DNA of 64,000 nucleotides, from NCBI GenBank assembly GCA_964017185.1, contig OZ024879.1, forward strand, positions 44,337,883 to 44,401,882, given 5' to 3'. Of the stretch, positions 1 through 33,217 are shown piece by piece. Position numbers and translations under genes: made by a program. Source of the DNA: Rugalucina vietnamica (taxonomy: Eukaryota > Mollusca > Bivalvia > Lucinida > Lucinidae). The number at the start of each line of letters is the position of its first letter. The stretch's first letter is position 1. Under the pieces are notes generated by a model. It saw only the letters and a list, made by a program, of their open reading frames with translations, did not search any database and had not been told where the DNA came from.

Positions 1-376
1 GTGGTTATCATGATTTATTCGTTTGTCCTTCATGGTTCATTGACTTGTTGGAGATTCACCACGAGTACCGAACAACTAACTAAATGTTGTGAACCACAGC
101 AGAAGATGAGGGTGAGGTTAGGGTCCGGTTTAAGCCCCCCATTAATTTTATATTACTGATCGTTCCAAGGTTATATTTCTGTTGAGGTTCTAATTGTTTT
201 GTGTTATGTGCTGTTTGATCCTTATGCACGTTTTTAAAGTTTTAGTTAAGTTTCGGTAATTGAGTGGGCGCCTAGTGGGAAATAGCTGCTAACTCGACTT
301 ACGATATGTTTTACGATTAGTTTTTACCCACTCCTTGGATTGTGGAGTGGGAATTTCTTTTTTGTTTGCGCATGAT
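1..376 (+). mobile_element. 3' end of Penelope-like element copy C (window-truncated)
   Basis: Equivalent to 19396-19771. It contains the 3' untranslated part shared with copies at 15240-15706 and 17880-18327. It ends in the hairpin CCCACTCC/GGAGTGGG (331-355), which in other copies reads CCCACCTC/GGAGTGGG. The start of the element lies outside the window. Confidence 0.7.
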
Positions 377-434
377 TCAGTATGAAGGAACTTGTCCCCA
401 TGTTATGCCATTTTATATCTTTAAACTTCACGCG

Positions 435-1320
435 CCGTGATAATCGCAACATAACGTGACATACGTATTAAAACGGGGTCAACACCGTCAAAGACCGTAA
501 CGCACTGTAACAAAACGAAACAAAATGTGTTCCGTAGGAAACGGGACGTGACGTGAGACGCTCAAGATCCAGATCCGTAGCTTACCGGGCTATTCACTAG
601 CTTCACGTTGCACTACGGACCGCCTCTGAGTTTTACTACGTACTGTTACGTACTGTCACGGTGTATTACGTTCAGCACGTTTTATCACGACCCATTACGT
701 TTCTCATTTCCGCCGTGACTGCCGTGGCAGATTTTTAAACTGCCAAAACATTTGCCATGGTGCCCACGGTTATCACGGCCTGCTACGTTTGCCTATCCCT
801 ATCCCATTCTCTGGCGTTGCGTCACGTTTATCCCGGTTTGATCACGGTTGTCTCAAATGTGGCTGCCGTGACCGCCGGGAACATAGTGTAAACGCTACAT
901 TAACAATAGAGAACATACGCTGCACTATGTCTTGAAGAAGGAATAAAATTCCCTGCATTCTTAATCAACTCTGCAGTCGATTGTTGAGGAGCGGGGTTAA
1001 AATTATTTCAAAGGACTTATTCTTTGTATTGCATCATGCTTACGTTTCGTCCGTAGTAGACCTTGACAGAACAAATAAATAAAAAAAATAATTATAATAA
1101 TAAAAGACGTGCTACGCCTTGGTCAAAACGCAACTGACCGCATTAGAACGTAACAGGCCGTAATAGAACGTGGTAATAATCGTGACAGATCGTTGATAAC
1201 CGTAAAGTACCGTAGTGCCTCCGTGACACACCGGCTTATAAGTACCACGGTTTGTTACGGATATCGTAATACAACGTAAGAAGACTTAACAAGACGTGAT
1301 AGATCTTGACAACAGAGAAA
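435..1320. repeat. Degenerate 10-bp CGT-phased repeat region
   Basis: At 1125-1235 the sequence splits into consecutive units of about 10 bp starting CGT or CGC, with consensus near CGTAAYAGAC. A similar plus-oriented block lies at 450-560. A block of opposite orientation (TTACG, TCACG) lies at 625-790. Between them are unrelated sequence and the paired 35-bp motif. There is no long ORF. Copies are at 19830-20715, 39210-40095 and 58604-59489. Confidence 0.6.
861..895 (+). repeat. 35-bp direct repeat, first copy
   Basis: 861-895 and 1365-1399 differ by one base (GTGACC versus GTGTCC) and are 504 bp apart. Both flank parts of the CGT-phased region. Confidence 0.9.
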
Positions 1321-1364
1321 AATATGACCAAAATTCCACGGCACGCTACGTTTCGAGCCAACGG

Positions 1365-1399
1365 GGCTGCCGTGTCCGCCGGGAACATAGTGTAAACGC
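1365..1399 (+). repeat. 35-bp direct repeat, second copy
   Basis: Partner of 861-895, with the core GCCGGGAACATAGTGTAAAC. Confidence 0.9.
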
Positions 1400-1523
1400 A
1401 GCATAAGAAACTTCAGTGACATGACATTAACGGAAGATCATCCGTTCGTTCGCATGGAATCAGAAAACCTAACTTCCCTCTCAGAAAAAAACAGCTGTTT
1501 CTATAGATCCAGACAGAAGTGAC

Positions 1524-1809
1524 ATGAGTTTTTCTGATATCAACGTCACTGTAGAGGATCGTGACACGCTTACTCAAATACTGGAGCAAATAAAAGAATT
1601 ATTACCGGCTGTGACTGCTCATCTTTCAGAACATAGTCGCCTTGACGAATGGGTTGCGCTTTTTCAAACTCATAAAAGCTGGAGATTTTGATGTCGATCA
1701 TATCGCCACCCAGTTGTTCTGTGATGTCGTCAAATTCGCACAAGTCGGATACGTTCATTCAGTGCGTTTCTCTCCAGCGCTAGCGCCTCAGCATGAGACG
1801 TCACGGTGA
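1524..1809 (+). pseudogene. Frameshifted ORF remnant, unknown family
   Basis: 1524-1691 is an ORF of 55 codons beginning Met-Ser-Phe-Ser-Asp, with a Leu-rich amphipathic segment and Asp-Glu-Trp-Val-Ala-Leu-Phe. A one-base shift near 1670 lets the next frame run to 1809, reading Thr-Gln-Leu-Phe-Cys-Asp-Val-Val-Lys-Phe. The two halves look like one protein. I recall LFCDVV-type motifs in repetitive ORFs of marine invertebrates but cannot name the family. Copies are at 20919-21204, 40299-40584 and 59693-59978, all with the same shift. Confidence 0.4.
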
Positions 1810-1819
1810 CACCTCCATC

Positions 1820-1972
1820 TTACAGCTGTAAACTACCCGCCCCACTGGCACCTCCAATTTCATAATCCTCTGTGACTTCTTTTGATGGACCTTCTTCTAT
1901 TTCGACATGAAATGCCCTGTCGACATTATTTTCTGACTCCTCAATAAACGACACGTCTAAAACATTATCCAT
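1820..1972 (-). pseudogene. Short acidic ORF remnant on the opposite strand
   Basis: This is an ORF of 50 codons from ATG at 1972. It is acidic, with many Glu and Asp, and ends at TAA (1820). The same frame continues open for about 30 more codons past this stop, so the TAA may be a mutation. Unit 1 has Asp where units 2-4 have Ala (base 1880). The function is unknown, and it may be part of a decayed transposon. Copies are at 21215-21367, 40595-40747 and 59989-60141. Confidence 0.3.
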
Positions 1973-2483
1973 TGTAAGACCTTAAAATGTCGTCTGTCTC
2001 CAGTTATCCTGTAGTCTTTAACCTGTTACGAAATATCTACCGTCGTTACGAACCTGTTATGAAAAAAACTGAAAGCTATAGCAACATGTACGTTTTAGAA
2101 ACGGGTTTGTTTAGAATGAGACGTTTGATAATCGGGGACGTTCTTTGAATGTATGGTATGAAATACTCTGTCAAATTATGTCAAGTCATAAAAACAACAA
2201 AAAGTTGAAACTGAAAGCAAAAAAAATAGGATTTAAATGAGGATTTTGTAGACAAAATACAGTTTTGTAAACAAAACTTGTATCAGCTGAGAGTACACTG
2301 TCTCATATTACAACCGCATTCAATAAGTTTAAATAATTATTCTGGACAAATCCAAAACTACAAAATATGCTACTTGCATTTTTTCACTGAAAGCGGACAT
2401 AAGCATATTTCGTCCTGAACCTGTAGCGCACTGTCGTCCAGAACCACACTATGTAGTAAAGAACATCCCTAAGCGTGTATATG
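1973..2483. other. No gene or repeat recognised
   Basis: AT-rich sequence with no ORF, splice-like pair or hairpin of note. The same holds for the equivalents in units 2-4. Confidence 0.5.
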
Positions 2484-2760
2484 CATCAGGAAAACATGTC
2501 CGTGCAATGTATACCCCCTAAACCCCACTTTTATATAGCAAAACTGGGGTACGCAGGGGTATACCTATTTTTCTTATGTTTGCTCCAAAACATAGACTGT
2601 GGGTACTCGTTAGAACCGCCTCGGCGAGGCGGTTCTAACGTGTACCCACAATCTATGATTTGAGAAAAAATAAGAAAAATATCAAACATTTTCTGCTGAA
2701 AATTTTCATTTTTTAAAATTTTAAAAATCTCTGTATATTGCATGGGCAAGTTTTCGTAAT
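2484..2760. mobile_element. Foldback element FB1, intact copy
   Basis: 2567-2683 folds into a hairpin of ~58-bp arms. The inner 2608-2640 is a perfect 16+1+16 palindrome with a GC-rich tip, and 2598-2650 pairs with one mismatch. Two relatives lie in the same unit: a copy lacking the palindrome (12434-12712) and an inverted half (14733-14873). Copies are at 21878-22154, 41258-41534 and 60652-60928. Confidence 0.75.
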
Positions 2761-2825
2761 GTATGTTTCTAAGAAAAATTTTGTAGCATATGTTTCTGTT
2801 GATACATTACGGAAACTTATCCATG
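2741..2825. repeat. Inverted repeat with 35-bp spacer
   Basis: CATGGGCAAGTTTTCGTAAT (2741-2760) pairs with ATTACGGAAACTTATCCATG (2806-2825), with two mismatches. It overlaps the end of FB1. Confidence 0.75.
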
Positions 2826-2994
2826 AATACTTTGGAATTTATTTTAATTACATATTAAATATCTATTTATGAACTAAATTTTAATTTTACAAATATTTAC
2901 CTTGCCTATCATAAAATAATGGTTTATTATATTGATTTTTGTAAGGATTTAGCATTTTTGACTTTTAAATTACATCAATTATTGAGTTTTTCTC

Positions 2995-3050
2995 TTGACC
3001 CCGTCAAACCTCAATTTTACTATATATAAGTATAGGTTTGAAGGGGTTAA
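2995..3050. repeat. Inverted repeat
   Basis: TTGACCCCGTCAAACCT (2995-3011) pairs with AGGTTTGAAGGGGTTAA (3034-3050), with two mismatches around an AT-rich 22-base loop. Confidence 0.7.
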
Positions 3051-3371
3051 GTTCCACACGAAGATGTTTCCATGATGCATATAGACAGGCCGACTTTGAC
3101 TGCTGAATCTGCAAAATTGTTGACGTGTTGGCTTTTTTCATGAACCGTCCTCATACACGTCTTAATCATTGCGGCAGTTAGCTTTTGACTTTCAATTTGC
3201 AAAGAAGCAAATTTTAAGAAACATCACTGAGAAGTTTATACTATTTCAAACTCTTGTGTGGACAACACTGACGGTTCTTTGTAAACATACAAAAGGTAAA
3301 TGAATTATTTCAGACATACAATAATCTTAAGATGTTTTGCACCACCTTACTTCTTTGATTTTTATTTATGA
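3051..3371. other. No gene recognised
   Basis: AT-rich sequence between an inverted repeat and SINE 1. The same holds for 3589-3905 after the SINE. Confidence 0.5.
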
Positions 3372-3588
3372 TTTTTGTTTGTCTGTTTGTTTGTGTTGAC
3401 GCTTAACGTCCCAGTCAACAATTTTTCAGTCATGTCGGGACGGAGCCAACGATTCCTGGGTTTAACCAGTACTGCAGGGAGTTTATGTGTCTTGCTCAAG
3501 GACACAACACGGTGACGCCTGTGGGGATCGAACCCAGAGGACCTCTCGATTCGGAGTCCGACGCTCTACCACTACGCCACTGCGCTCC
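3372..3588 (-). mobile_element. tRNA-derived SINE 1 (unit 1)
   Basis: Read on the minus strand, 3588-3511 is tRNA-like. It has an acceptor start GGAGCGC, an A-box-like TGGCGTAGTGG, an anticodon arm resembling tRNA-Arg (loop CTCCGAA, stem partly lost), and a B-box GGTTCGATCCC. A ~110-bp body follows with an internal GTTGACG...CGTCC motif, then a simple ACAA-type tail (3372-3395). The decayed anticodon stem and attached body favour a SINE over a functional tRNA. The V-SINE or Meta-SINE class cannot be fixed by eye. Confidence 0.75.
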
Positions 3589-3905
3589 TTGTTGTCTTAC
3601 ATATTATATCCCTACGTTTTTGAATTAACGCAGTTTAAACTATACTGTAAATACTACTAAACCTGTGACAGGGATAAACCCACTTTAAATCCAATACAGA
3701 AACATTCTGAAAGCCCACATGTCATACGCCAGAGATTAGATTTGAATTTGTTTTTCACCAATCAGCTAAGGAGTATTTTCCATAAAGGGTGTAGCATGTT
3801 TGCTCGAAGGCTTTTATACGACTTTCGTAAAGTGAAAGGGACGCAAGAGTTTTGCATGAATGAAAGAATTCACAAAAAATTAAAGTGATCAGAACTCACT
3901 TGTGA

Positions 3906-3993
3906 ATATTATTTATTTATTTGTTTATTTATTTATTTATTGTGTGTGTGTGTGTGCGTGCGTGTGTGTGTGCGTGCGTGCGTGCGTGTGAAT

Positions 3994-4082
<89 letters not shown>
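3906..4082 (+). repeat. TTTA and TG/CG microsatellite
   Basis: Two TTTA runs alternate with a TG/CG run (3941-3990) and a pure TG run (4029-4082, 54 bases). The TG run is 60 bases in unit 2 (with a TA interruption) and 82 bases in units 3 and 4. Full tracts are at 23300-23482, 42680-42878 and 62074-62271. Confidence 0.95.
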
Positions 4083-4083
<1 letters not shown>

Positions 4084-4260
4084 TATGTCAATTGTATAGA
4101 GCAGTGGCTGTGAAAAGGTTAAGTCTGACAGAAAATGTATAATAATTTTTACAACAATTTGGGTTTCCGACCAGGTACAACACAAACCAGCCTGTACAGT
4201 CACAGAAGAAACCCAGAATCTTGAAAAATTGGGTATAAGTAGAGGAGGAAATGTACTGTC

Positions 4261-4336
4261 CATGTAGCGAAAACAAAGACGCTGATCAGTTTCGCGGTTA
4301 CCGCGAAGCTGATCTGCGTCTTTGTTTTCGCCCATG
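4261..4336. mobile_element. Foldback element FB2
   Basis: A near-complete 76-bp hairpin. Its tip TTCGCGGTTACCGCGAA is perfectly paired, with arms around GCGAAAACAAAGACGC. A half copy of the right arm and its flank recurs at 5033-5100. Copies are at 23661-23736, 43057-43132 and 62450-62525. Confidence 0.8.
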
Positions 4337-4867
4337 CAAATTGTTGGTTTTCTCACGCACAGGCTCATATTTTTTGTCTTATGTTTTCGGTCAGTGTCTT
4401 ACTTACATGTTTTTAAAAGCGGGGGATTTTTACGTAAATGCAAATAAAACATGGACGCACAGTAAAGTGCTGATTATTTAAACCGTCAAACGTACGGATT
4501 TTCTAAGTTAAAAAATAAAAATGTTGAAAGAAAATGATATGTCAACACATTAATTCTAACACACCTCGCCTATATAGCAAATGGTAAAAAAACGTGTTAT
4601 ATTGTGCAACAATTTCACTGGGCGAATAAGCGTGACGTTACTTTGCGGCATTTGTGACGTCAGCTATCCCACAAAGCAGCGTTGGACGGTGAAACGTCGT
4701 TTAAGCGCACAACAAACGTAATAAGTGTGTGCAAATACCAGCATTACAGTCAAATATTTGGCGGGATATCTGCAATGCAATGGCGGAAAGCTGAACGATA
4801 TCGACGGTTTCAGCAACATTTACTCCATTTGTTGTGTGTTAGAATCGAAATAAATCAGCTCAAGTGC

Positions 4868-4998
4868 GTGAATTGTTGAGTAATAATTCACTGTTTGTCG
4901 GTCAGTTGTAAGACGATAAATCACTCGCGCTACGCGCTCGTGATTTGATCTTCTTTACAACTGACCTCCAAACAGTGAATTATTACTCAACAATTCAC
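4868..4998. mobile_element. Foldback element FB3
   Basis: A 131-bp hairpin. The outer 30 bases (GTGAATTGTTGAGTAATAAT and onward) pair perfectly, the inner GGTCAGTTGTAA pairs, and the tip is CTCGCGCTACGCGCTCG. Copies are at 24268-24398, 43665-43795 and 63058-63188. Confidence 0.85.
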
Positions 4999-5109
4999 TG
5001 CTAGAGCTGATCTATTTCTTAATTTAAATTCAAGCTGATCTGCGCCTTTGTTTTCGCCTATGCAGATTGTTGGCTTTCCCATGGGGCGGCTCATATCTTG
5101 TATTTTAGT

Positions 5110-5178
5110 TTTGACGTTTTTGTCGCGACGTCAAACCTTTAATCTATGTTTCCCGTAAAGATAACGTCAGGACGTTAT
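5110..5178. promoter_or_regulatory. CRE-like palindromes
   Basis: ATAACGTCAGGACGTTAT (5161-5178) is a perfect 8+2+8 dyad. TTGACG at 5111-5116 pairs with CGTCAA at 5129-5134. Another TGACGTCA lies at 4654-4661. They are 0.8-1.3 kb upstream of the peptide gene's first coding exon. A promoter role is inference only. Confidence 0.35.
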
Positions 5179-5324
5179 AAATTTGAATTTTGGTAATGCC
5201 AAAACAATATGGCGACGTTCCCGCTGAAGAGCTGTTAGAAGTGAAAGCACTACAGGACTGAAATAAATTGTTGCTGTACTTTCATTTCTTTCTTTTTTCC
5301 TATCAACACCGACACAAGGACTTG

Positions 5325-5345
5325 TTATATATATATATATATATA
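5325..5345 (+). repeat. TA dinucleotide tract
   Basis: A run of TA about 20 bases long in units 1 and 3, and 18 in unit 4 (near 63516). Confidence 0.9.
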
Positions 5346-5349
5346 CTCA

Positions 5350-5929
5350 GAGGATAAAGTTTAGTCAGTAACTTTGACCAGCCCGATTACTATAATGCCC
5401 AGCCGCTTGTCTTAGATGTTCTCCTGCATTAAATTTGCAAAGTCAGTCTCGAAAGAAACTCCACCAGTTGTCAATTTCGACAGAGTAATTGGTCTTTTTC
5501 GTAAAACATCATTTTTGTAATTACCCGATAAATGATCAAATCGGCGCTTTGATTAATAGCGCTTTCTGATAGAGGTTGTATCCAGTGACAAAAATCCGAA
5601 AAAAATCTTTTCAAAATTCAGCCACAGTCTCGAGAAATAACAAGTCAAATATTCATTATTTTTAGATTACCTCCCTTTCATTTAAAACAAGAACGAAAAT
5701 TGGTGTATGCACTGTGGCAAAACCACATGCGATATTTCAATCGTTTTTTGTTGGAAACGTTAGGTTTTATTCACAGTTTTATGACTGGTAATTTTAATCC
5801 CAAACTATCGAGGGGTTTTGATGCTATAGCGATTTAAACTGTCCCAATGGGATTTTACAGGTATTTTCACTGACTAAACTTTTGCCGGTGAGCATATATT
5901 GTCAGTGCAAATTTGTTTTGTAATTTTAG
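5350..5929. other. Upstream region of the peptide gene
   Basis: It ends in the acceptor TTTGTAATTTTAG. A GCCG/GTGAGC donor-like site at 5886-5887 lies only 43 bases before that acceptor, too close for a normal intron. The 5' UTR exon and promoter were not found. Confidence 0.45.
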
Positions 5930-5940
5930 AGCGTCAACAC

Positions 5941-7822
5941 ATGATGAGGGCCTTAATAGTTATAATTATGCTGATTCAAGCTGTGGTACAGATAAGCTAC
6001 GCACAATTTAGTGATTGTGTTCCACCTACAGCCTATATGAGAAGTTACTTTGAGTGTGAATCAAGCTGTCATGATTAGTGAGTATTGCGCGTATACCACA
6101 AACGATGAGATGCAAATCCCGCTAACAAAACGACCGATGCTCATTGATTGTCATGGACACCATAATTTAACTGACTGTTGCTCATTGATTGTCATGGACA
6201 CCATAATTTAAACAAAAGACATTCTTAGATTATTCCATTATGCCATTCTGATTCGAATTACAAACTTGATTTAAACCGCCTTATTGGCTACCTGGTTAAC
6301 CAAAATCTTAAGAGCAATGTTTGATAAAATTACAGTTATAACATACTAGTAATGTCTAAGGTCTTTATATTTTGGCCGTTACGTTAATTCTTACTTAACA
6401 TGTTACTAAAATGTTAAAGTAAGCAATGATAGCACAATCATGACAATGGCGAGATCGTAAAGAAATACACTCCAAATCGGAGGTAAGACAAATAATCCTA
6501 AATTCTTGCATAGATTTCTATGCGCATAGCTGTTGAAGAAGTTTTCGATTGGTCGAAAGCCGTGTTCAAACAGCAAAACCCATGTTCAAATCATGAAATT
6601 CAAGTGCCGTTTGAACATGTAATTTAGCTGACGTCATTGGTCAATGCGACGTGACGTCATGTGTTTTGTAGAAACAAAATGGCCGACGTTGAAGAAGCTC
6701 CGCGGTTTTCGGTGAGTTTTTACGTTGTTAATGTTATTTTCATGAGATTTTAAGTGGATTAGAGTGAAAATGCAAGAATAGCGATCAACCATGATTTGTT
6801 TCAGTGTTCAAACATTCGCTGGATCACTCGGAAGGTGTTTGAACACGCGGCCTGCGGCCTTGTTTTCAAACACCTTCCTCGTGATCCATCGAATGTTTGA
6901 ACACTGAAAACCATGGTTGATCCCTATAGTCACAATATGGTACTTAATCAGCGGTTAGTACTATAATATTATGTTAAAGTGGGAATTTGTTGACATCGTC
7001 CCGACCCATGCAGGTTCTAATATCAAGACACAGCAAGCCTGCAATATATTATATAAATATATTGAATAATGGATGTAAACAACATACAAGGATGACAACG
7101 TTCAATGAATCAATGTACTAGCGTGAAGGCATTTCAACTGACATTTGATGGCTTATACGTATGTCTATTGAATGGTTTGACTTGAACCACTTTTCCTGGG
7201 CAGGCTCAGACATGAGCGGTTAACCAGTATTTAGAAATTTATTATCGGTTAAGATTCATTTTCTTACCAATGTTTATTTGGTCCCATTTAGATAATACTA
7301 GTCTTTGTATCGACTACCATGTTGAAAGTTGCAAAATTTCAGTTATTCGTTTTGGTTCCATGTTGCCAAATCTAAAGGGTCACTGACGAGACTTTAATAG
7401 ACGAAACCGCGGTATGGCCCATGCCCTTTCTCATTAATATGTTCGCTGCTCTTAAAGGATCTCAGTTTTAATTTTTATTTAGATTGTAAGTCAGAAGTGT
7501 AAAAGGTTTGCCTTGAGGCACAAGCAGTCCATTTATTTCTTTATGTCCAAACGGGCGGGGCCCCAAAACGTGATTAGCCCACGCTCTTGTAGTACAAGAT
7601 GTCGGGAGGGGGCAGAGCGGGGTTGTTGGTTGATTTCGGTTCATTTCTTCACAATCCTTTCTTACTTTATTTAAATGTATATGCTTCGTTTATTTCAGTT
7701 GCAGGAAAAACGACCAGCACGGGTGTCGTTGTGGAGAAGCCTCAAATGAAATGTGCCTCACAGATTTTGATAGAAATATCTTTTGTGCTTGTGGGTGTGG
7801 TATGGGCTCATCTGGAAAATAA
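5941..7822 (+). CDS. Secreted ten-cysteine peptide, two coding exons (unit 1)
   Basis: Two exons are inferred: coding 5941-6077 and 7699-7822, joined by a phase-2 intron of 1621 bp. Exon 1 follows an acceptor (AG at 5928-5929) and ends at a GTGAGT donor (6078). Exon 2 follows TATTTCAG (AG at 7697-7698) and ends in TAA. The product is 86 residues. Residues 1-21 form a signal peptide with a hydrophobic core rich in Ile, Leu and Val and a Ser-Tyr-Ala cleavage context. The mature part has ten cysteines (26, 39, 43, 47, 55, 57, 65, 75, 77, 79) spaced C-x12-C-x3-C-x3-C-x7-C-x-C-x7-C-x9-C-x-C-x-C, implying up to five disulfides. By side-chain count the mature peptide is about net -3. The C-terminal Gly-Lys could allow amidation. 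No family is recognised. The CxxxC and CxC spacings resemble mollusc CS-alpha-beta or mytilin-type defence peptides, but the charge does not. An upstream 5' UTR exon is implied by the acceptor but was not located. Confidence 0.82.
6138..6211 (+). repeat. 41-bp tandem duplication in the peptide-gene intron
   Basis: The 33-bp segment from TGCTCATTGATTGTCATGGA repeats after 41 bp (6138 and 6179). Copies are at 25537-25610 and 44934-45007. Confidence 0.9.
6595..6717 (+). promoter_or_regulatory. Twin-CRE promoter-like module with first-exon-like ORF
   Basis: Two perfect TGACGTCA sites (6629-6636, 6652-6659) flank an inverted CCAAT (ATTGG, 6636-6640). Twenty bases later an ATG (6679) opens 11 codons reading Met-Ala-Asp-Val-Glu-Glu-Ala-Pro-Arg-Phe-Ser, directly followed by a GTGAGT donor (6712). 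I recall MADxEE...PRF starts in repetitive recombinase-like genes of molluscs and cnidarians. If correct, this is a detached first exon. Copies are at 25994-26116 and 45391-45513. Confidence 0.45.
6783..6922. mobile_element. Foldback element FB4
   Basis: A 140-bp hairpin from GATCAACCATG to CATGGTTGATC. The inner arms include CAGTGTTCAAACATTCG and GGAAGGTGTTTGAA, with a tip around GGCCTGCGGCC. An acceptor-like TTTGTTTCAG (6795-6804) lies in the left arm. Copies are at 26182-26321 and 45579-45718. Confidence 0.85.
7377..7420 (+). ncRNA. Hammerhead ribozyme A, intronic (unit 1)
   Basis: Type I hammerhead layout. Stem I pairs GGGTCA (7377-7382) with TGGCCC (7415-7420), using one G-U. The core CTGACGA fits CUGANGA. 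Stem II is 7390-7402, with G-C closing, one A-A mismatch and one C-G. Then comes GAAA, a minimal stem III (ACC/GGT around a 2-base loop), and the cleavage triplet GTA with the predicted cut after A7414. It lies in the intron of the peptide gene, 285 bases before exon 2, in the sense direction. The flanks match ribozyme D (CTAGTCTTTGTATCGACTAC upstream, AAAGGATCTCAGTTTTA downstream). The weak stem II may slow cleavage. Confidence 0.75.
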
Positions 7823-7849
7823 TCCTACATGTTTCCCTTACAACACCAA

Positions 7850-7855
7850 ATTAAA
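7850..7855 (+). promoter_or_regulatory. Candidate poly(A) signal ATTAAA
   Basis: This ATTAAA lies 28 bases after the stop codon of the peptide gene. No AATAAA occurs in the next few hundred bases. Copies are at 27249-27254 and 46643-46648. The hexamer is common in AT-rich DNA, so only its position supports the call. Confidence 0.35.
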
Positions 7856-8277
7856 TGGAATATGACTACAGATTTCTCTGAACTTTAGCTGATATAGGAG
7901 TCTTGGTCCGAACATCTACTATAAACTACCTAAAATTGCCGGTCTGATCATCCGCGGTCATACTAGATATTTATGTTTTCAGCAGCTGGTGCTTGTTATC
8001 CATAAGATTTCAGAGTACAGTGCAATCACTTTCACCGCGCCGCTTGAACTCACGTGGCTTTATCATGCGCATATTGCCAACTGGAACAATATTCTTCAAT
8101 ACACATTGGGCATTACCGAAGTGTTACCTGGAAAATTACCTTTGCAAAACGAATTCGGATATTTCCCATACATCGCTATCAGCGATTGCCTTTATTTGAC
8201 ACCTGTGTGACATCGGGTAATATTCTGATATTTCACAGGTAACTTACAAGGTGGAAAAACATTATAAATAACAATTT
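7856..8277. other. Downstream region of the peptide gene
   Basis: A good acceptor (TTATGTTTTCAG, AG at 7980-7981) is followed by 76 open codons to 8209 and a TTTCACAG/GTAACT junction. No protein similarity is recognised. It could be a noncoding or unknown exon. Confidence 0.3.
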
Positions 8278-8760
8278 TGTGGAGTGAGAATTTTTTCTGA
8301 TTGCGCCATTTCCTGATCAATACCTACTTTTACCTTTTGATAATATGGGCAGGCCCAGTGGATGTGGTTTGTGCATGATAATTATAAAGTTTCCGACCAC
8401 TTCATGCGACTAACCGGCAGGACGATTATCAAGAGAAATAGAGGGTTTTACACGAGTGGTCATTTCATATGAAATTTATTAAACGAGCCTTCGGCGAGTT
8501 TAACAAATTTCATATGAAATGAGCACGAGTGTACGATTCGCTTTATCATAGGATTTTTAAAACAGGATTTAATGCCGAAGCCCCCTTTTCAGACTTACAC
8601 CTTTCTGTTGCAAATGGATTTGTTTCTTCTAAAACGTATGCGGTTAATCGTGATTCGGAGTTACTACAATGGCACCGTTTCAAAGTATATCGTAATATTC
8701 GAATGACAAGAAATAAATGGAAAAAAATATTAGCAACCAATATCGAAAGATAACTTACAT
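8278..8760 (+). pseudogene. Penelope-like RT fragment D with foldback (unit 1)
   Basis: 8278-8337 matches the 3' terminal segment of copies A-C (GATTGCGCCATTTCCTGATC). 8560-8650 encodes Ala-Glu-Ala-Pro-Phe-Ser-Asp-Leu-His-Leu and Gly-Phe-Val-Ser-Ser-Lys, matching the region after the YxDD box in copy C. A foldback (8449-8533) interrupts the fragment. There is no start and no complete domain. Copies are at 27677-28159 and 47071-47553. Confidence 0.55.
8449..8533. mobile_element. Foldback element FB5
   Basis: An 85-bp hairpin. Its arms contain TTTCATATGAAATTT on both sides and the tip is GAGCCTTCGGCGAG. The outer TACACGAGTG/CACGAGTGTA pairs partly. It sits beside RT fragment D. Copies are at 27848-27932 and 47242-47326. 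Confidence 0.85.
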
Positions 8761-9054
8761 GTAACCTTTCATTTTCGGGAAAATTGGCGAACCGCCTTTG
8801 ATAACCATGTGTAAAAGAAAGCTTTTTCCATTGTGTTTTGTATAAAAGCCGGGAAACATTGACGTGAACAAGCTGGTTACGTCATTATCCACGATCATTG
8901 AGCGATGGAATGAAACGTGTTTGAATCAAGAGTCAAGTGGCCAAGTTCATTTTAAAAATTTCGTGTTTTATGTTTTTGTAAAATTCTTTTGAAAATTATT
9001 TTGATCCGGATCATCTACAGATCCGCTATGGTTACAACAAGTGAATACGTATCT

Positions 9055-9135
9055 GTTTTTCCCACCTCGGTTTTTGGAGTGGGAATCTTTTTCTGATTGC
9101 GCCTTTCCTGATCTTTGCCTACTTGTACCTTTTTG
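9055..9135 (+). mobile_element. Penelope-like 3' terminal fragment
   Basis: Near-identical to the last ~80 bases of copies A and B, including the CCCACCTCGG...GGAGTGGG hairpin and the TTGCCTACTTGTACCTTTTT end. It may be the 3' end belonging to RT fragment D. Copies are at 28454-28534 and 47848-47928. Confidence 0.65.
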
Positions 9136-9195
9136 TAATGGAAAAGCGTTATTATAAAACATTATCAAGTAATTGCCAGTAAGATGATTATGTAG

Positions 9196-9346
9196 TAATT
9201 ACCCGCTGAGCGACAGGTGGGTATGATATTTTCCTGACCTGTCCAGGCAAAAGCATGCACCGAGAGCCCGAAGGGCTCGAGGTGCATGCTTTTGGCTGGA
9301 CAGGTCAGGAAAATATCATGCCCACCTGTCGCGAAGCGGGTAATTA
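9196..9346. mobile_element. Foldback element FB6, 151-bp near-perfect palindrome
   Basis: Arms of ~74 bases from TAATTACCCGC to GCGGGTAATTA pair with only a few mismatches. They include GACAGGTGGG, ATGATATTTTCCTGACCTGT and CAAAAGCATGCACC. The tip is GAGCCCGAAGGGCTC. It has no ORF. Copies are at 28595-28745 and 47989-48139. Confidence 0.92.
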
Positions 9347-10242
9347 ACTTACCTTATGACCCGACTTGGTGAAATTTTAGTTTCCGCCCGACCTACACAA
9401 CGACAAATCAAACACTGGTTACTTTTTGATCTGTTCGGAGCTTATACGAAATATTACATAAACGAATGACCGAAACATTTTGTCCATTAAAATTTCTTTT
9501 TTCGAGACGTAACTGTTAAACGAACACTGCACGTGCAAAACGAGGAATCTTGTCAACGATCTGTCTTCGCTATTGTCAAAAATAGATCAGAATGGAGTAT
9601 CTTCCCTTGTACGTTTTAAACGTTTTGAAACATATTTTTATTTTGTAATATTCAGCATTTCTTTCTCAAATTTTCTAATCAACAACAGGAATTATCTTTT
9701 ATCAAAACAGATAACAGCTGGGCGAGCAAATAAAAATTATCTCTTCTGTTATATGTAAACCGTAGCACCATTTCGTTTTGAGTTTCAAATAAGTATATAT
9801 AGCGTGTGTAGGATTGTAATGCAGGGTTTGAAACCTACGGACCTAACTTTCTAAAATCCCCATAGTAAGTTAGGGGACCATTGTAAAAATGCCCAGCTGT
9901 ATTTAAGGGATACAGTTGGTCGTTTATGATATACGCAATTCAAAAATGTGTGAAATTGGTTTCTCATTCATTGTTCTTGCACTTTTACAACTAACAATAA
10001 CACACTAACATTATAATACGAGAATCAGAAACCAACTTCCAACTCGAGAAGACACTCATCTCAATGCAGCTGCCCAGTCCGATCATGGCACTGCAATCGA
10101 TATTCATGCGCACTGGGCAAATCCTTAATTCAATACTACTCAAACAAGGATTTCAAAGAAGTTACATTGGGATGGAAGTCCGAGTCGAAATGGCATGGCC
10201 ACGCTTTAGTGGAGCTTTCATCAGCTGTCGGAAAGTAGGAAT
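9347..10242. other. No gene recognised
   Basis: Contains weak inverted repeats at 9843-9874 and 9951-10036. The short ORFs at 9573-9758 and 10064-10270 have no signal peptide, motif or splice support. Confidence 0.5.
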
Positions 10243-10337
10243 GTCACTTTCACCACTTGTCTGGGGGTAAGGACACTTTCCTTACCTCCAAACAGGTATG
10301 AAAGTACTTTCCTTACCTCCAGACAGGTGTGAAAGTA
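10243..10337. repeat. Inverted repeat with tandemly doubled arm
   Basis: The left arm (10243-10273) can pair with either of two 31-bp tandem copies on the right (from 10275 and 10306), which share TTTCCTTACCTCCA and ACAGGT. Two alternative hairpins are possible. Copies are at 29642-29736 and 49036-49130. Confidence 0.75.
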
Positions 10338-10742
10338 TTTTCTATACTACCGTAGACACTGCACGTGCAGTAAGTTATGAAAAATAACTCCCCATGATTA
10401 ACATTGCAGTCATAAGGTAACCTTAAATAAGTAATGGACTTGACCTTAAAAGTACACTCATTACTGCGTGAACTCGCACAATATCTGACTGAACTTGTTT
10501 AACAAGAAGTCGTGTCCGGAAAAAGCCTCTCAACCGAATAATCCATTGAATATGTAACCTGGGGCTAGCTAGAAATCACAGAAGGGTAACTAATTTATCA
10601 TAGTGTCCTTTTGAAAGCACGCATATAGAAAAAAAAAACTGCCCTGTACATGTATCTTGTGAGTACCCCAATGTGTACAAACATGATATTTGCAATGAGC
10701 ACGTTCGCTATAGTACAAATTTGAGCACAAAAACGCCAAGGG

Positions 10743-11124
10743 GCGAATATCGAAAAACGAAAACCGAACTAACTTCTTTTTTTGAATATCGAAAACCGAA
10801 TATCAAACTAACTTATTTTTTTGAATATCGAAAAAGGAATATCAAACTGACTTATTTTTTGAATCTCGAAAAACGAAAAACGAATATCGAATTAACTTAT
10901 TTTTTGAATATCGAAAAACGAAAAACGAATATCGAACTAACTTCTTTTTTTGAATATCGAAAAACGAAAAACGAATATCGAACTAACTTCTTTTTTTGAA
11001 TATCGAAAAAAGAAAAACGAATATCGAACTAACTTATTTTTTTGAATATCGAAAAACGAATACCGAACTAACTTCTTTTTTTTTTTGAATATCGAAAAGC
11101 GAAAAACGAAAATCGAACTAACTT
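10743..11124 (+). repeat. Purine-rich minisatellite, ~30-46 bp period
   Basis: About ten units built from GAATATCGAAAAACG, a second AAAAACGAATATCGAAC block and TAACTTCTTTTTT. Units vary by losing one GAAAAAC block. Reading frames across it are spurious. Copies are at 30142-30523 and 49537-49917, with small internal differences. Confidence 0.93.
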
Positions 11125-11200
11125 CTCAGTGCCGAATGAAATAAAATATAAAAGCTTGATCCTTTGGAAGCAGTAAAAAACGTTCAAAGGGAGGTAGTAT

Positions 11201-11246
11201 GGGCCATATTGCTCAATTTCGGGTACTGAACCCTCATCAGTGACCC
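11201..11246 (-). ncRNA. Hammerhead ribozyme B (unit 1)
   Basis: Read on the minus strand. Stem I pairs GGGTCA with TGGCCC. The core is CTGATGA. Stem II pairs GGGT with ACCC around a 5-base loop. GAAA follows, then stem III ATTG/CAAT with a 2-base loop, and an ATA cleavage triplet with the cut after the A opposite 11207. Stem I continues outward after an asymmetric internal loop (GGGAG with CTCCC), the usual place for loop contacts with stem II. Every core base matches the consensus, so this is the best-formed of the four motifs. It lies about 75 bases from the purine-rich minisatellite. Confidence 0.85.
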
Positions 11247-11644
11247 TGTATCTCCCGGCGACCATAGCCAGATAAATATACTGCAATGTCAAAAATATAC
11301 TGCAATTTCAAAACATTACACAATAGACTACAAGGTAAGTCTAAATCAAAGACACATGCCTAAACGGAGTCAAATGACTAGAACTGTGTTTAGAAGAACA
11401 CTGCTGCACATTCACTTCAAACGATAATCACGGCCGTCACAGTCCAATAATGACAACACCTTTCTGTAATACAGGTGTCATAGTAATGATTGTGTTTATA
11501 ACGACCGTCTTTCACACTCTCGGGCAGATTTACGGAGTACCAATTTATTACTCAATCACACTTCAAAAAAGTCGAAAAGGCTAGCTTATTTTCGAATAAA
11601 CGAAAATTGTGGTCCGACCGAAACCATCTTCGGCCAAAAAAGTG
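11247..11644. other. 5' flank of hammerhead element B, then unassigned
   Basis: On the minus strand, 11345-11247 carries the GTCTTTGATTTAGACT segment shared with element C. The rest shows nothing recognisable. Confidence 0.45.
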
Positions 11645-11662
11645 GTCCGGCCATGGCCGGAC
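11645..11662. repeat. Perfect 18-bp palindrome
   Basis: GTCCGGCCATGGCCGGAC, beside GC-rich sequence 60 bases before SINE 2. Copies are at 31044-31061 and 50438-50455. Confidence 0.9.
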
Positions 11663-11722
11663 GCCGCCGCCGACCTTGCATGAGATGGAAATAAAATATG
11701 GGAGTACTCAATAGAAGTAATT

Positions 11723-11967
11723 GGCGGCCCCGGTGCCCGAGCGGTTCAGAGGGCTGTTTCTGAATCACTCGATCATCTCGCCGCTGTGTCTGGTCTGGGT
11801 TCGAGCCCCGCTCTCGCCACATGTGAGACAAGCCAAGTTCTGCTTGCGGGTGTGTACGGAGGTTTTTCTCAGGGTTCTCCTGTTTTCGCCCACCGACTGA
11901 TTTTTCCGTCTCATATGAGCAGAAATAATCTTGAAAGGGACGTAAAACTGAATCCAAAAAAAATATA
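11723..11967 (+). mobile_element. tRNA-derived SINE 2 (unit 1)
   Basis: The head 11723-11820 resembles a class II (Ser/Leu-type) tRNA, with an A-box-like TGCCCGAGCGGTTC, a long central part and a B-box GGTTCGAGCCCC. It is followed by a ~130-bp body and an A-rich end (AATCCAAAAAAAATATAA). TAATT occurs just before the head and again after the tail as a possible target duplication. Copies are at 31122-31366 and 50516-50760. Confidence 0.78.
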
Positions 11968-12433
11968 ATTAATTGCTATTAACATATTTATTATGTTTTA
12001 AGAATTTAAGATTTTAAATTTTAAAAATTCTAACAATTTATATTACCAAGCAACAGTGTTCACTAAATATATGTTCAAAGTTTAAATTCTGTTTGATGAA
12101 ATCCCACATCTGGAAAATCTCTAGTGCTATATCTGACAGATTTAATGGCCATATCATTTACACATGCTCATTCCTAATGTCTATAAGGTGCTAGAGCTAA
12201 CTGTCTATCCCCTCTAATGAGCTGCTCAAAATTGAGCTACCTAGAGACCCCTGTGTGGCCAAGTGTGTAAGATGTTTTACCTTAAATAAGGAATGGACTA
12301 AAACTTAAAAGTGTATTTACCTTAAAAGTACGTAAACCTTAAAAGAACATTTACGCTAGGTCACTGGTCCCTTAACATGCCTTTGGAAGTCACAATGACC
12401 TAGGTCAATATGTATGCTGATGGAAATTTACTT
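11968..12433. other. No gene recognised
   Basis: AT-rich sequence with a local CCTTAAAAGT-type repetition near 12284-12345. The stretch 13308-13573 is likewise unassigned. Confidence 0.5.
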
Positions 12434-12712
12434 CATCAGGATACAATGTCCGTGAAATGCATTCACCCTTGAACACAATTTAATATAGTAAAACTAGGGC
12501 CGAATTAGCCAAGGTCCGAATTGTCCATAATTCTATAGAGGAATACATATTGTTCTTATTTTTGATCCAAATCATAGATTGTTCTAACGTGTACCCACAA
12601 TATTTTGAGCAAAAATAAGAAAAATAGCAAGATTTTATTTTCTGAAATTTTCAGTTTTTACGACTGAAAATCATCTCTGTATATTGCATGGGCAAGATTT
12701 CGTAATGAATGT
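12434..12712 (+). mobile_element. FB1-related copy lacking the palindrome
   Basis: Colinear with 2484-2765 at both ends (CATCAGG...ATGTCCGTG and CATGGGCAAG...TTTCGTAATG). The hairpin core has been reduced to a single TTCTAACGTGTACC segment. Copies are at 31833-32111 and 51227-51505, where several bases differ from unit 1. Confidence 0.65.
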
Positions 12713-12908
12713 TTTACTATTGATTCCGTCTCTGTCACTAATAAGCGTAAATTTTGCATCTTTGAAACGTAAATTGCTTGTAAACAGCTGTATTTGTATA
12801 TGCTTTCATTCCTCAAATTCTATAGATGTAACAGAAGGTTTTACGTCTAACAAATGCGCAATTGAAGATACCTATGTCTATGTACATGTATCAACTAAAG
12901 AATAATTA

Positions 12909-13065
12909 CTATTATTTTTATTCAAAGTGGACAGTAAATAATGAACCCTTTGTTCATCTTATAACTGATATACTTAATAGTGTTTGGAATCAGAAGATAT
13001 CGACTATTATTTTTATTCAAAGTGGACAGTAAATAATGAACCCTTTGTTCATCTTATAACTGATA
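12909..13065 (+). repeat. 95-bp-period direct duplication
   Basis: Bases 12909-12970 and 13004-13065 are identical 62-bp copies at 95-bp spacing. The second copy's continuation is interrupted by the hammerhead-bearing insertion. Copies are at 32308-32464 and 51702-51858. Confidence 0.9.
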
Positions 13066-13286
13066 CAGTATTTTGATTATTTGGCCCCTTTGGGAATTTT
13101 AGTCTTTGATTTAGACTACACAGATGTAAATTCTTGAAATTGCAGCAAAATGTCTGGCTTTCGCTGCCAGTTTTATAAAGGGTCACTGATGAAGGTTCAT
13201 TACCCGAAATTGTACAATATGACCCATCTTCTAGCTTTGTACTTTTACTGCTTCCAAAGGATCTAACAATTATTTTTATGTAATAT
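13066..13286 (+). mobile_element. Hammerhead-bearing insertion (element C, unit 1)
   Basis: A direct duplication gives its limits. The block ending TATAACTGATA at 12970 is followed 10 bases later by TGTTTGGAATCAGAAGATATC (12981-13001). In the second copy the same block ends at 13065, but the TGTTTGG part resumes only at 13287. The intervening ~221 bp replaces the 10-bp spacer and holds ribozyme C. Marks shared with the other three hammerhead regions are TATTTGGCCCC near the 5' side, a TAGTCTTTG segment, and AAAGGATC about 30-40 bases after stem I. No protein is encoded. Copies are at 32465-32685 and 51859-52079. Confidence 0.65.
13180..13225 (+). ncRNA. Hammerhead ribozyme C (unit 1)
   Basis: Stem I GGGTCA/TGACCC is perfectly paired. 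The core is CTGATGA. Stem II is GGT/ACC with a 5-base loop, but its first position is an A-C mismatch instead of the usual G-C. GAAA follows, then stem III ATTG/CAAT with a 2-base loop, and an ATA triplet with the cut after A at 13219. Outer stem I is extended by GCCAG pairing with CTAGC, with one mismatch. The motif lies inside a ~221-bp insertion (13066-13286). Confidence 0.78.
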
Positions 13287-13573
13287 TGTTTGGAATCAGA
13301 AGATATCCATTTAAAATTTCATAAATTTTCAAAAGCTGAAACTGTTTCATAACAGTTACTATTAAACTTCTCATTTCATCACAAGCCCAGCATTATATTA
13401 TGTTGACTAGTAAAAGAACTAAAAGAAACATAACTGCAATTAGCACATTTTATGTAGCATGCAAAATTAATGGTTTGTAGTCGAAGTCAACAATAATTAT
13501 TTGAAGTCACTTTCAGACGGATCTCTCTTCCTTGTTATAAACCAGTGCTTTAAGGAAGAAATGTGCCTTTTTC

Positions 13574-13637
13574 TTGGAGCTAGTTGGATTCAAATCCACA
13601 ACCTTATAATCCGGAATTTAACACCACTATGCGCCCC
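13574..13637 (-). mobile_element. Decayed tRNA-like SINE head
   Basis: The minus strand starts GGGGCGCATAGTGG, has an anticodon-arm-like CCGGATTATAAGG, and a B-box-like GGATTTGAATCC near its end. The D and acceptor arms pair poorly. Copies are at 32973-33036 and 52367-52430. Confidence 0.5.
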
Positions 13638-13782
13638 TCAAATCAAACATGAACCATATAACCATCAATACATTCATATTTCCCATTCTTTGAATTCCAG
13701 AAGAGCCGTTGATTTGATAAAACAAGTAGCCCAAAGGCAACGATCGCTCACCTGAGAGTCAACAAGTACAGTCACTGGACAA

Positions 13783-13784
<2 letters not shown>

Positions 13785-13835
<51 letters not shown>
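13785..13835 (-). repeat. Poly(T) tract (poly(A) on the minus strand)
   Basis: 51 T in unit 1, and 31 in units 2 (33185-33215) and 3 (52579-52609). On the minus strand it follows the 161-bp array and is preceded by CTTAATAAA. Confidence 0.95.
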
Positions 13836-13837
<2 letters not shown>

Positions 13838-13844
13838 TAAGATC

Positions 13845-14735
13845 TGATAAAAATTCAAGAGATGCTGGAGTGGCCACAACACTAAACATTGATTTTTTCA
13901 AACATTCAAGGGCAGCTAACTCCATAGTCCAGTGTCGAATATGGCTCAAATTTGAACTCATCCAAAATGTTATAGTTATCCTTGTTACTTCCGAGAATGA
14001 AGAAGAGCCGATCAAAATTGAAGGCGCTAGAGTGGCCACAATACAAAATATTGATTTTTCAAACACTAAAGGGAAGCTAACTCCGCAGTCAGAGGTCGGA
14101 TCTGGTCGAAACTCGAACTCATCCGAGATGTTATGGATGTCCTTGCTACTTCCAAGAATAAAGAAGGTCCGAATAAAATAAAGTCACTAGAGTGGCCACA
14201 ACACTAAATATTGATTTTTCACACATTCAAGGGCAGATAACTCTGCAATGAATGGTTGAATCTGGCTGAAATTCGAACTCATCCGAAATGTTATTGCTAT
14301 CCTTGTTACATCGAAGTATGAAGAAGATCTGATCAAAAGTGAAGGCGCTAGAGTGGCCACAACACAAAATAATGATTTTTCAAACACTCAAGGGCAGCTA
14401 ACTCCACAGTCAGAGGTCGGATCTGGCTGAAATTCGAACACATCCGAGATATTATAGTTTTCCTTATTACCGGCAAGAATGAAGAAGATCAGAATAAAAA
14501 TGAAGGCGCTAGAGTGGCCACAACACTAAATATTGATTTTTCAAACACTCAAGGGCAGATAACTCCGCAGTGAGAGGTCGGGTCTGGTCGAAATTCGAAC
14601 TCATCCGAGATGTTATGGATGTTTTTGTTACGTCTAAGAATAAAGAAGATCCGAATAGAAATGAAGGCGCTAGAGTGGCTACAACACTAAATATTGATTT
14701 TTCACAGTCAAGGACAGATAACTCTGCAGTCATCG
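13845..14735. repeat. 161-bp tandem repeat array, about 5.5 copies
   Basis: The motif GAGTGGCCACAA recurs at 13868, 14030, 14190, 14351 and 14512, with GAGTGGCTACAA at 14673, giving spacings of 160-162 bp. Units also share TTGATTTTTC, AAGGGCAG and AACTCATCCGA. The monomer is not a multiple of 3, so the minus-strand ORFs across it are incidental. Copies are at 33225-34115 and 52619-53509. Confidence 0.93.
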
Positions 14736-14873
14736 AGGCGGTCCTTACGAGTACCCACAACCTATGTTTTGGAGCAAAAATAAGAAAAGTAGGTATACCC
14801 TTGCAAACGCCAGTTTTGCTATAGAAAAGTGGGGTTTAAGGGGGTATACGTTTCACGGACATGTTTTCCTGAT
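14733..14873 (-). mobile_element. FB1-related half element, inverted
   Basis: Reverse complement of about 2484-2626, from the hairpin tip CGAGGCGG outward to CATGTTTTCCTGATG. It abuts the end of the 161-bp array. Copies are at 34113-34253 and 53507-53647. Confidence 0.7.
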
Positions 14874-14882
14874 GATCTGTCC

Positions 14883-14960
14883 TTGACCTCTCTCTCTCTC
14901 TCTGTCTGTTGTATCTACATCACCACCAGCTTTATTTGACCTCTCTCTCCACTCTGTCCT
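14883..14960 (+). repeat. CT-rich simple sequence
   Basis: Two short runs of CTCTCT separated by unrelated sequence. Confidence 0.7.
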
Positions 14961-15039
14961 TTTCTTCTCTACCCACTTCCAGTTCTTCCGCCTAGGCAAT
15001 TTTACTCATGAAAACAGAACGAAAAGTATATATGTAGAA

Positions 15040-15706
15040 TCGGTGGATCGGGCGTCAGACTCTATGATGGCCCCGACTTAAAGCTATTCATTTTAGTTGG
15101 TTGGGGCCGGAGCTTCTTGTCTGTGGCTTGGCCCACCGGGGTTCAACTGGTGTTTTTCTTTTGCTCCGGAGTTAGTAGGTTATTCGGCGCCCAGGGATCT
15201 CCATCGTCGGGCAGCTTACTGTGAGTCCTTGTTTTTGATTCATCAGGATGCTTATCATGATTTATTTGTTTGCTCTTGATGATTCATTGACTAGTTAGAG
15301 ATGCACCACGAGGACCGAAGAACTTACTAAATGTTATGAACCACTGCAGAAGCTGAGGGTGAGGTTAGGATCCTGTAAAACCGGTTTAAGCCCGCCAGTA
15401 ACTTTGTGTTACTGATCGTTCCAAGGCGATACTTCTGTGGTGGTTATTTTTGTTTTATGTCTTGGTGTTTAAATTTTTTGTGCTGTTGGCGCCTTATGTA
15501 TGTTTTCATATTTTTAATTAAGTTAAGGTAACTGAGTGGCCACCTATTGGGAAAATAGCTGCTCATTCGGCTTACGATATGTTTCATGGTATAAGTGCCT
15601 GGTTGTTAGTTTGGGTTTTTCCCACCTCGGTTTTTGGAGTGGGAATCTCTTTCTGATTGCGCCTTTTCCTGATCTTTGCCTACTTGTACCTTTTTCTTAA
15701 GGTTTT
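15040..15706 (+). mobile_element. Penelope-like element copy A, 5'-truncated (unit 1)
   Basis: It begins with the end of the RT ORF: the frame around 15050-15215 reads a Gly-Val-Arg-Leu-Tyr-Asp tail and then a hydrophobic stretch to TGA. About 490 bp of 3' untranslated sequence follows, ending in a TTTCCCACCTCGG...GGAGTGGG hairpin and CTTTGCCTACTTGTACCTTTTT. The same 3' sequence follows copies B and C. No RT core remains. Copies are at 34420-35086 and 53814-54480. Confidence 0.65.
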
Positions 15707-16082
15707 AGCGTATGAAAATATTCAAAATATAATCTTGAGGTATCATACTATCCCAACAGTAACCGAAAAATGTTCATTGCTATTATAGTATCTTAGTTTT
15801 ATTTTATTTTTTATTACTGCAGCTGATGTTATGCCGTGTTGCGGCCCTAAAAGTCTCCCCGTACATCATCCATAGTGCAGATCATATTTTTCTTTTTTGT
15901 GCTTTGAGATCAGCGAGGGTAATCTGAGAAATCAGAAAGTTATGATCGGTGTAGATACATTTTCTAACCAACGTTTAAAATATTTGGCCCCATTTGGATT
16001 ATACTAGTCTTTGTATCGACTACCCTGTTGACAGATGCAAATTACAGAAAATTCTCTTTAACTCCATGTTGCCAAATCTAAA

Positions 16083-16123
16083 GGTCTGAAGAGGCTTAAG
16101 TAGCCCAAACAGCGATTTGGCTC
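16083..16123 (+). ncRNA. Hammerhead ribozyme D, decayed (unit 1)
   Basis: Diverged copy. CTGAAGA (16086-16092) still fits CUGANGA, and stem II GGCT/AGCC with a 5-base loop is intact. The invariant GAAA has become CAAA, stem I has lost bases, and stem III with its cleavage site no longer folds. The flanks are homologous to ribozyme A (7302-7480). It is predicted to be inactive. Copies at 35463-35503 and 54857-54897 are also decayed. Confidence 0.65.
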
Positions 16124-16194
16124 ACATTTCTCATTAATTAATATGTTCACTGCTCTCAAAGGATCTCAGTTTTATTTTTGTTTAGTTTCGTCTA

Positions 16195-17200
16195 ATCCAG
16201 AAAGCTTCATGTGAAATTTGGCTTTGATTGACCAGGTATTGAACATTATGGCCATTTACATGTATAAAGCCCGGGGACAGGCAGGCTAAACCCTCAAGGG
16301 CCATTGTTTTTTCGTAAACATCCTTTCTAACCATTTGCCCATTCCAATCAAGATTTCACATTGCACAACATTTTACCAGTTTGTTCAACATGCCAAGTTC
16401 AAGATTTAAGGATTTTTGGGTTCTAAGGAAGAAGAGTTTCAAAAGTTTGTACTATATACAAACATACCTGGTGGCCTTCTTGGTCATATGACCTTTGAAA
16501 AATTCTATATAATTTTGCGTTCCTCTTTCAAAGAAGGCTTCACATGTAATTTGGCGTTGACTGGCCAAGAGGTTTCAGGGGAGATGCTTGAATATTGTTG
16601 TCAATGTATGTAGCTATTGGACAGATAGCCCCAAGGAGCCTTTGTTTTCATAAACATAAATTTTGCCCATTTCCTACATGTTTCTCATAAAATACGTTTG
16701 TAACAGTTTTCTCCATTCAAATGCATAGGCGACCTAAGCTGACATTGGACTTCAATAGATCAAGGCCATCCCAGGGTTATATATACCTTTTTTCCTTTTG
16801 CAAGAAAGCTCCATATAAAATTTAGCTTTCATTGTCCAAGCGGTTGAACAAAAGAAAATATCTGAATATTACACAAATATACATGTATTTAGCCTCGTGA
16901 CAGGGGAAGACTACCCCGTTTGGCCAAGATGTTTTCATAAAGTACCCGTCTGTCCATGCAAGCTTTCTCTATTCACTGACATTTTCTTAGTTTCAAATGC
17001 ATAGGCATCCAAAGTTGACCTTGCCACAAAACAGGTAAACGTCATCCCAGGGTCATGATATATATGCACATTGTAGAGCTTTATTCGCCAATGCTTCATG
17101 ACAGGTTTCATCATCATAGGCCTTCTGGTTCTGGAGAAGAATATTTCTGAATGTTTTTGACGTTTATAGTACTAGCGGCCATCTTGGTCATGAGAAGTAA
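16195..17200. repeat. Degenerate ~300-bp tandem repeats
   Basis: Related segments GAAAGCTTCATGTGAAATTT (16200), GAAGGCTTCACATGTAATTT (16533) and GAAAGCTCCATATAAAATTT (16804) are each followed by a TTTGGC-type, GACCAGG-type and later GTTTTCATAAA segment. Divergence is high. The short ORFs at 16416-16613 and 16935-17117 lie in it and are not supported as genes. Copies are at 35575-36580 and 54969-55974. Confidence 0.55.
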
Positions 17201-17217
17201 ATTATTTATATATACTT

Positions 17218-22765: not shown

Positions 22766-22982
22766 TTTTTGTTTGTCTGTTTGTTTGTGTTGACGCTTAA
22801 CGTCCCAGTCAACAATTTTTCAGTCATGTCGGGACGGAGCCAACGATTCCTGGGTTTAACCAGTACTGCAGGGAGTTTATGTGTCTTGCTCAAGGACACA
22901 ACACGGTGACGCCTGTGGGGATCGAACCCAGAGGACCTCTCGATTCGGAGTCCGACGCTCTACCACTACGCCACTGCGCTCC
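22766..22982 (-). mobile_element. tRNA-derived SINE 1 (unit 2)
   Basis: Same as the unit 1 copy. Confidence 0.75.

Positions 22983-23427: not shown

Positions 23428-23483
<56 letters not shown>

Positions 23484-33182: not shown

Positions 33183-33217
<35 letters not shown>

Follow-up and report, generated by a model that had tools for sequence, protein, structure and literature searches.

A putative two-exon gene for a secreted ten-cysteine peptide in a 19.4-kb tandem array of Rugalucina vietnamica

The DNA of the bivalve Rugalucina vietnamica analysed here (a stretch of 64,000 nucleotides, hereafter the window) raises the question of whether two short exons that simple calling of open reading frames (ORFs) would overlook form a gene and, if they do, what kind of product that gene would make. 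A sequence-only reading had proposed a secreted peptide with ten cysteines. Our analysis indicates that the locus is probably a real, spliced animal gene of two exons, and self-comparison places it in a tandem array. The nature of its product is a more tentative matter, on which cysteine frameworks, peptide properties and searches of several collections bear to different degrees.

The gene model

When the two exons of Table 1 are joined at the GTGAGT donor and the TTTCAG acceptor, translation yields a single frame of 86 codons that is closed by a TAA at 7820-7822. The spliced translation contains the signal-peptide-like start, the ten cysteines and the stop that had been described, with cysteines at residues 26, 39, 43, 47, 55, 57, 65, 75, 77 and 79, all of them past residue 21. 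The account of why ORF calling fails was likewise borne out. Neither exon gives an ORF of more than 60 codons in its own frame, since the ORF that holds exon 1 (opening with a TTG at 5899) is 59 residues long and no ORF of at least 30 residues reads exon 2 in the peptide frame; a shadow ORF of 88 residues at 7599-7865 covers exon 2 in the wrong frame.

Table 1. Coordinates of the gene model, its copies and the tandem units in the window.
Feature	Position	Strand	Remarks
Exon 1, coding part	5941-6077	+	start codon, signal-peptide-like stretch, cysteines 1-3; ends in phase 2; translation
Intron GTGAGT...TTTCAG	6078-7698	+	1621 nt, phase 2
Inverted repeat inside intron, mobile-element-like	6778-6927	.	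84% self-complementary
Exon 2, coding part	7699-7822	+	seven cysteines and TAA stop; translation
Rival exon start	7705	+	6 nt downstream of 7699; splice score 5.3 vs 3.1
ATTAAA, possible poly(A) signal	7850-7855	+	28 nt past stop; pattern only
Copy 2, exon 1	25340-25476	+	
Copy 2, exon 2	27098-27221	+	M64K and silent change at G85 vs copy 1
Copy 3, exon 1	44737-44873	+	
Copy 3, exon 2	46495-46615	+	M64K, silent G85, 3-bp deletion; 85-residue product
Tandem unit 1	1-19395	.	self-comparison, alignment
Tandem unit 2	19396-38775	.	self-comparison, alignment
Tandem unit 3	38776-58169	.	self-comparison, alignment
Tandem unit 4, partial	58170-64000	.	window end falls just before exon 1

Splice sites were scored with a generic matrix. 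By this matrix the donor ranks 68th among 1165 GT dinucleotides of the unit and the acceptor 37th among 947 AG dinucleotides, and three donors inside the intron score above the one at 6077. The higher-scoring acceptor that opens an exon at 7705, absent from the sequence-only reading, counts against the gene model: joining 6077 to 7705 creates a TAG at the junction and truncates the translated product to 45 residues. Downstream, the nearest AATAAA to the gene is found at 8712. A prokaryotic promoter scan, a method not applicable to animals, returned nothing.

A tandem array and its copies

The window is made of head-to-tail repeats of a 19.4-kb unit: three whole copies of 19,395, 19,380 and 19,394 bases, and a fourth cut short at 5,831 bases. 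This repetition, and with it the presence of three gene copies in the window, was not part of the sequence-only reading. The first 20 kb matched the next two copies with BLAST identities of 99.75% and 99.61%, and when the whole units were aligned with MAFFT, 31 substitution columns (5 in a microsatellite and 26 outside it) and 10 indels were counted. Unit 1 is the odd one out in 18 of these columns, unit 2 in 2 and unit 3 in 11, counts that include the five microsatellite columns. The substitutions are clustered at 5123-8218, which holds 12 of the 31, and none falls between 13256 and 18431.

The peptide gene occurs once per whole unit, and all three copies keep the frame and the ten cysteines, an observation that says little because the copies are so alike. 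The two coding substitutions amount to one replacement and one silent change in the peptide frame, whereas both would be replacements in the shadow frame. An excess of substitutions in the coding sequence, 2 where 0.35 would be expected (P 0.049), was considered and set aside as too weak to use. The 3-bp coding indel is a single event without a good comparison, because all six of the remaining indels, those of the microsatellite and the poly-T left aside, are of 1 bp and five of these six lie beside A or T runs. A tblastn search for diverged paralogues within the unit found the two exons alone, the next best match having an E-value of 0.069. A six-frame Pfam scan for a second gene per unit, with stops read as X in 12 stretches covering 1-19792, gave no family at E ≤ 0.05; much of the rest of the unit consists of repeats.

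The predicted peptide and its cysteine framework

The gene, one per unit, would encode a precursor of 85-86 residues. Its N-terminus has a hydrophobic core, where hydropathy averaged over 11 residues reaches 3.15, and the -3/-1 rule makes signal peptide cleavage plausible after A21 (S-Y-A, residues 19-21). Removal of about 21 residues by signal peptidase would leave a secreted, acidic mature peptide that is 64-65 residues long and whose ten cysteines are probably paired in five disulfides. The slight acidity that had been noted was confirmed by computed pI values of 5.08, 5.50 and 6.06 and net charges (K+R minus D+E) of -3, -2 and -1 in copies 1, 2 and 3, respectively. Counted from the first cysteine, the spacing is x12, x3, x3, x7, x1, x7, x9, x1, x1, and the peptide contains no adjacent cysteines, no KR and no RR.

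The earlier statement that this spacing matches no nameable family agrees with the Pfam profile search, in which precursor and mature peptide matched no family at E ≤ 10 and a theromacin control returned Macin with 94.7 bits. A search of a protein collection with the precursor gave no candidate, by a method that needs three shared 5-residue words and detects only fairly close relatives; the theromacin query retrieved leech entries (UniRef, NCBI), so the collection does include animal proteins. The sole NCBIfam match was a bacterial sactipeptide (13.6 bits against a cut-off of 42), and none of four PDB matches at E ≤ 10 was significant. A pattern scan gave 33 matches in genome contigs and 10 in viral contigs, none of which was confirmed. 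Written forms of parts of the spacing were not found in the open-licence literature, where absence does not amount to absence in print, and among the papers listed there for ten-cysteine secreted bivalve peptides no title indicated a family of this sort.

Five known frameworks were fitted to the peptide, namely those of theromacin, two members of the trypsin-inhibitor-like (TIL) family, mytilin and CRP-I. The theromacin spacing gave the best fit, which was equalled by 12 of 5000 random placements and by 109 of 5000 shuffles of loop order (21 and 272 of 20000, respectively, by an earlier measure). These odds are flattering, as the test was picked once the data had been seen and was applied to several frameworks. 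Theromacin (PDB 2LN8, PF14865) is secreted, as the peptide is predicted to be, and likewise has a mature peptide of about 65-75 residues with ten cysteines; the elements C-x3-C ... C-x7-C-x9-C-x1-C are ordered and spaced alike in both. The macin C3-C9 spacing beats most random or shuffled frameworks, but one cysteine is skipped in a test chosen post hoc. The peptide differs in its acidity, in its extra cysteine two residues before C6 and in its last cysteine, which stands two residues after C9 rather than 14. Its coding region is also in two parts, while the macin genes of leeches consist of one exon (PMC12109416). Residue kinship to theromacin was not supported, with 43 of 300 cysteine-fixed shuffles scoring as high and an hhalign probability of 2.1%; true macins scored 143.3 and 57.4 against each other in the same residue comparison. 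Macin (PF14865) was rejected as a family assignment, on the lack of a Pfam match, the absence of C1 and residues that lent no support. A C1-C7 disulfide has been suggested as a defining macin trait (PMC5116183), and the mature peptide, in which the cysteine placed at C2 is the first, lacks it. The peptide may work like a CS-alpha-beta peptide, although macin membership is not supported.

The sequence-only reading had likened the peptide to CS-alpha-beta or mytilin-like peptides. The first likeness held weakly, by way of the theromacin spacing only; the CS-alpha-beta motif of C-x3-C, C-x-C and a third pair is present in all three copies as a pattern of cysteines. The mytilin likeness did not hold. 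Mytilins have C-x3-C-x3-C towards the N-terminus and C-x-C-x-C towards the C-terminus, as the peptide does, but the rest of their array C-X3-C-X3-C-X4-C-X11-C-X-C-X-C-X2-C (x4, x11 and x2; PMC7168163) does not fit, and its fit is equalled by 2680 of 5000 loop shuffles. Mytilins are moreover strongly cationic, unlike a peptide of pI 5.08-6.06, carry an anionic extension at the C-terminus and are encoded in four exons. Mussel CRP-I genes, described in PMC10138031 as a multicopy family with tandem duplicates, make secreted cysteine-rich products. Their six-cysteine knottin array C..C..CC..C..C has, however, an adjacent CC and a dibasic propeptide site, neither of which the peptide shows, and CRP-I was rejected with a fit no better than shuffles.

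A CS-alpha-beta-like fold is conceivable for the peptide, if somewhat short of probable. One face of a helix would carry Cys39, Cys43 and Cys47 (i, i+4, i+8), and this helix would be tied to the last C-x-C-x-C strand in the CS-alpha-beta manner. A crude hydrophobic-moment test was marginal for the candidate helix (reached by 326 of 10000 shuffles for residues 32-49 and 623 of 10000 for 30-49) and detected no amphipathicity in the candidate strands (8081 and 8351 of 10000). The core C...C-x3-C...C-x-C can be placed by us on the ten-cysteine reference array given in PMC5116183. The peptide would then occupy C2 to C10, with C1 absent and one extra cysteine before C6 that falls outside the array. 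By the pairings published for this array, 26 would pair with 57, 39 with 75, 43 with 77 and 47 with 79, leaving 55-65 for the fifth disulfide. An alternative register preferred by hhalign would place Cys43 and Cys47 on C3 and C4 and alter these pairs.

The likeliest work of such a peptide would be that of a secreted defence (immune effector) molecule, a role to which we give nearly, though not quite, an even chance. The joint claim of a real gene, a secreted product and a defence role is rated somewhat less likely than not. Tandem amplification would raise the dose and let the copies diverge. An amplified gene for a secreted peptide would be in keeping with the gene presence/absence variation of mussel antimicrobial peptide families (PMC7653742) and with the tandem duplicates among mussel CRP-I genes (PMC10138031). 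The acidity of the mature peptide, where the peptides to which it is likened are cationic, counts against the explanation we prefer. It argues against a cationic peptide of the usual membrane-active type, so that the product may be either a target-binding defence peptide or a secreted peptide without a defence function.

The locus might represent a family of secreted peptides that is specific to its lineage and has five disulfides in an undescribed cysteine framework, with one recognisable gene per tandem unit and copies that are already diverging in charge, missed by ORF-based annotation; we regard this as possible rather than probable. If expressed, the gene would add a new cysteine framework to the invertebrate secreted cysteine-rich peptides. 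It would also be a clear example of a tandem array amplified very recently, with copies set apart by the in-frame loss of one codon and by one replacement that alters the charge. The lack of a 60-codon ORF in either exon and the wrong-frame ORF over exon 2 illustrate how such genes escape annotation.

Alternative explanations and other elements of the unit

The exons could be a chance reading frame or parts of a decayed gene, not, or no longer, spliced together, which we consider unlikely. Among 3000 Markov-simulated units, a two-exon model with strong splice sites and at least ten cysteines arose once (1 of 1500 order-2 and 0 of 1500 order-3 units), and one with at least eight cysteines 11 times. 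The signal-like start, the splice signals, a spacing that fits a known array and the retention of frame and cysteines in every whole copy also argue for a gene. Under loose splice criteria, however, models with at least ten and at least eight cysteines appeared in 5 and 34 of 300 simulated units, respectively, the better-scoring acceptor at 7705 leads to a stop, and the protein search returned no homologue. A first run, whose criteria differed a little, gave 0 and 2 of 200, and the simulation criteria were set after the find was seen. The model is beyond chance for one unit; a genome scan covers many windows, and over thousands of them such models would arise by chance. The array, for its part, could be an assembly artefact, the animal carrying one gene copy or two alleles. 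This would leave the gene itself untouched, and our estimate for it, that of something distinctly improbable, lies outside the sum shared by the other alternatives. The BLAST identity of 99.6-99.75% over 20 kb speaks for such an artefact, but each unit has variants of its own (18, 2 and 11 substitution columns, with 5 of the 31 in the microsatellite), and simple mis-joining of two alleles alone cannot yield three distinct head-to-tail copies.

Given a real gene, its product might instead be an acidic secreted signal, a waterborne attractant or a structural or matrix peptide, with copies kept for dose. The negative net charge and low pI of all three copies agree with this proposal, and the best PDB match, though noise, is a ciliate pheromone (E 0.55). 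This match is insignificant and spans only three cysteines' worth of the peptide, and protein, PDB and Pfam searches found no sequence similarity to any such peptide; we regard a non-defence product as fairly unlikely. A TIL protease inhibitor is very improbable. The run C-x3-C-x3-C-x7-C, followed by G-C-x-C, is common to the peptide and the honeybee inhibitor 1CCV, but the two diverge in the second half of the framework, the whole-framework fit is equalled by 2379 of 5000 loop shuffles, 120 of 300 shuffles match the residue score, the hhalign probability is 1.5% and Pfam gave no family.

Several other elements were observed in the repeat unit. An Rfam SECIS_1 match (39 bits against a cut-off of 35) lies at 15056-15123, and again at 34436-34503 and 53830-53897, inside a dispersed repeat. 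The sister copy of this repeat, at 19198-19706, reads AGGA in place of the ATGA that a SECIS core requires. With this sister repeat and no protein family found upstream, a selenoprotein was set aside and the match is probably due to chance. At about 18360-19130 there is what we take, by eye, to be a broken reverse-transcriptase-like reading frame, for which a Pfam scan of the frames was negative. An ORF on the minus strand at 4015-4368, one per unit, is part of a dispersed repeat; a search of the protein collection found 3427 relatives for it, and the 120 of them listed all come from ENA contigs of 0.3-21 Mb. MITE-like inverted repeats with perfect centres, 65-172 bp long, occur at 9196-9346, 4847-5018, 2566-2681, 6778-6927, 8449-8533 and 4267-4331, two of them with sub-threshold matches to microRNA precursors. 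Finally, a minisatellite with units of about 39-46 bp and a tandem repeat of 161/321 bp are located at 10744-11126 and 13839-14732.
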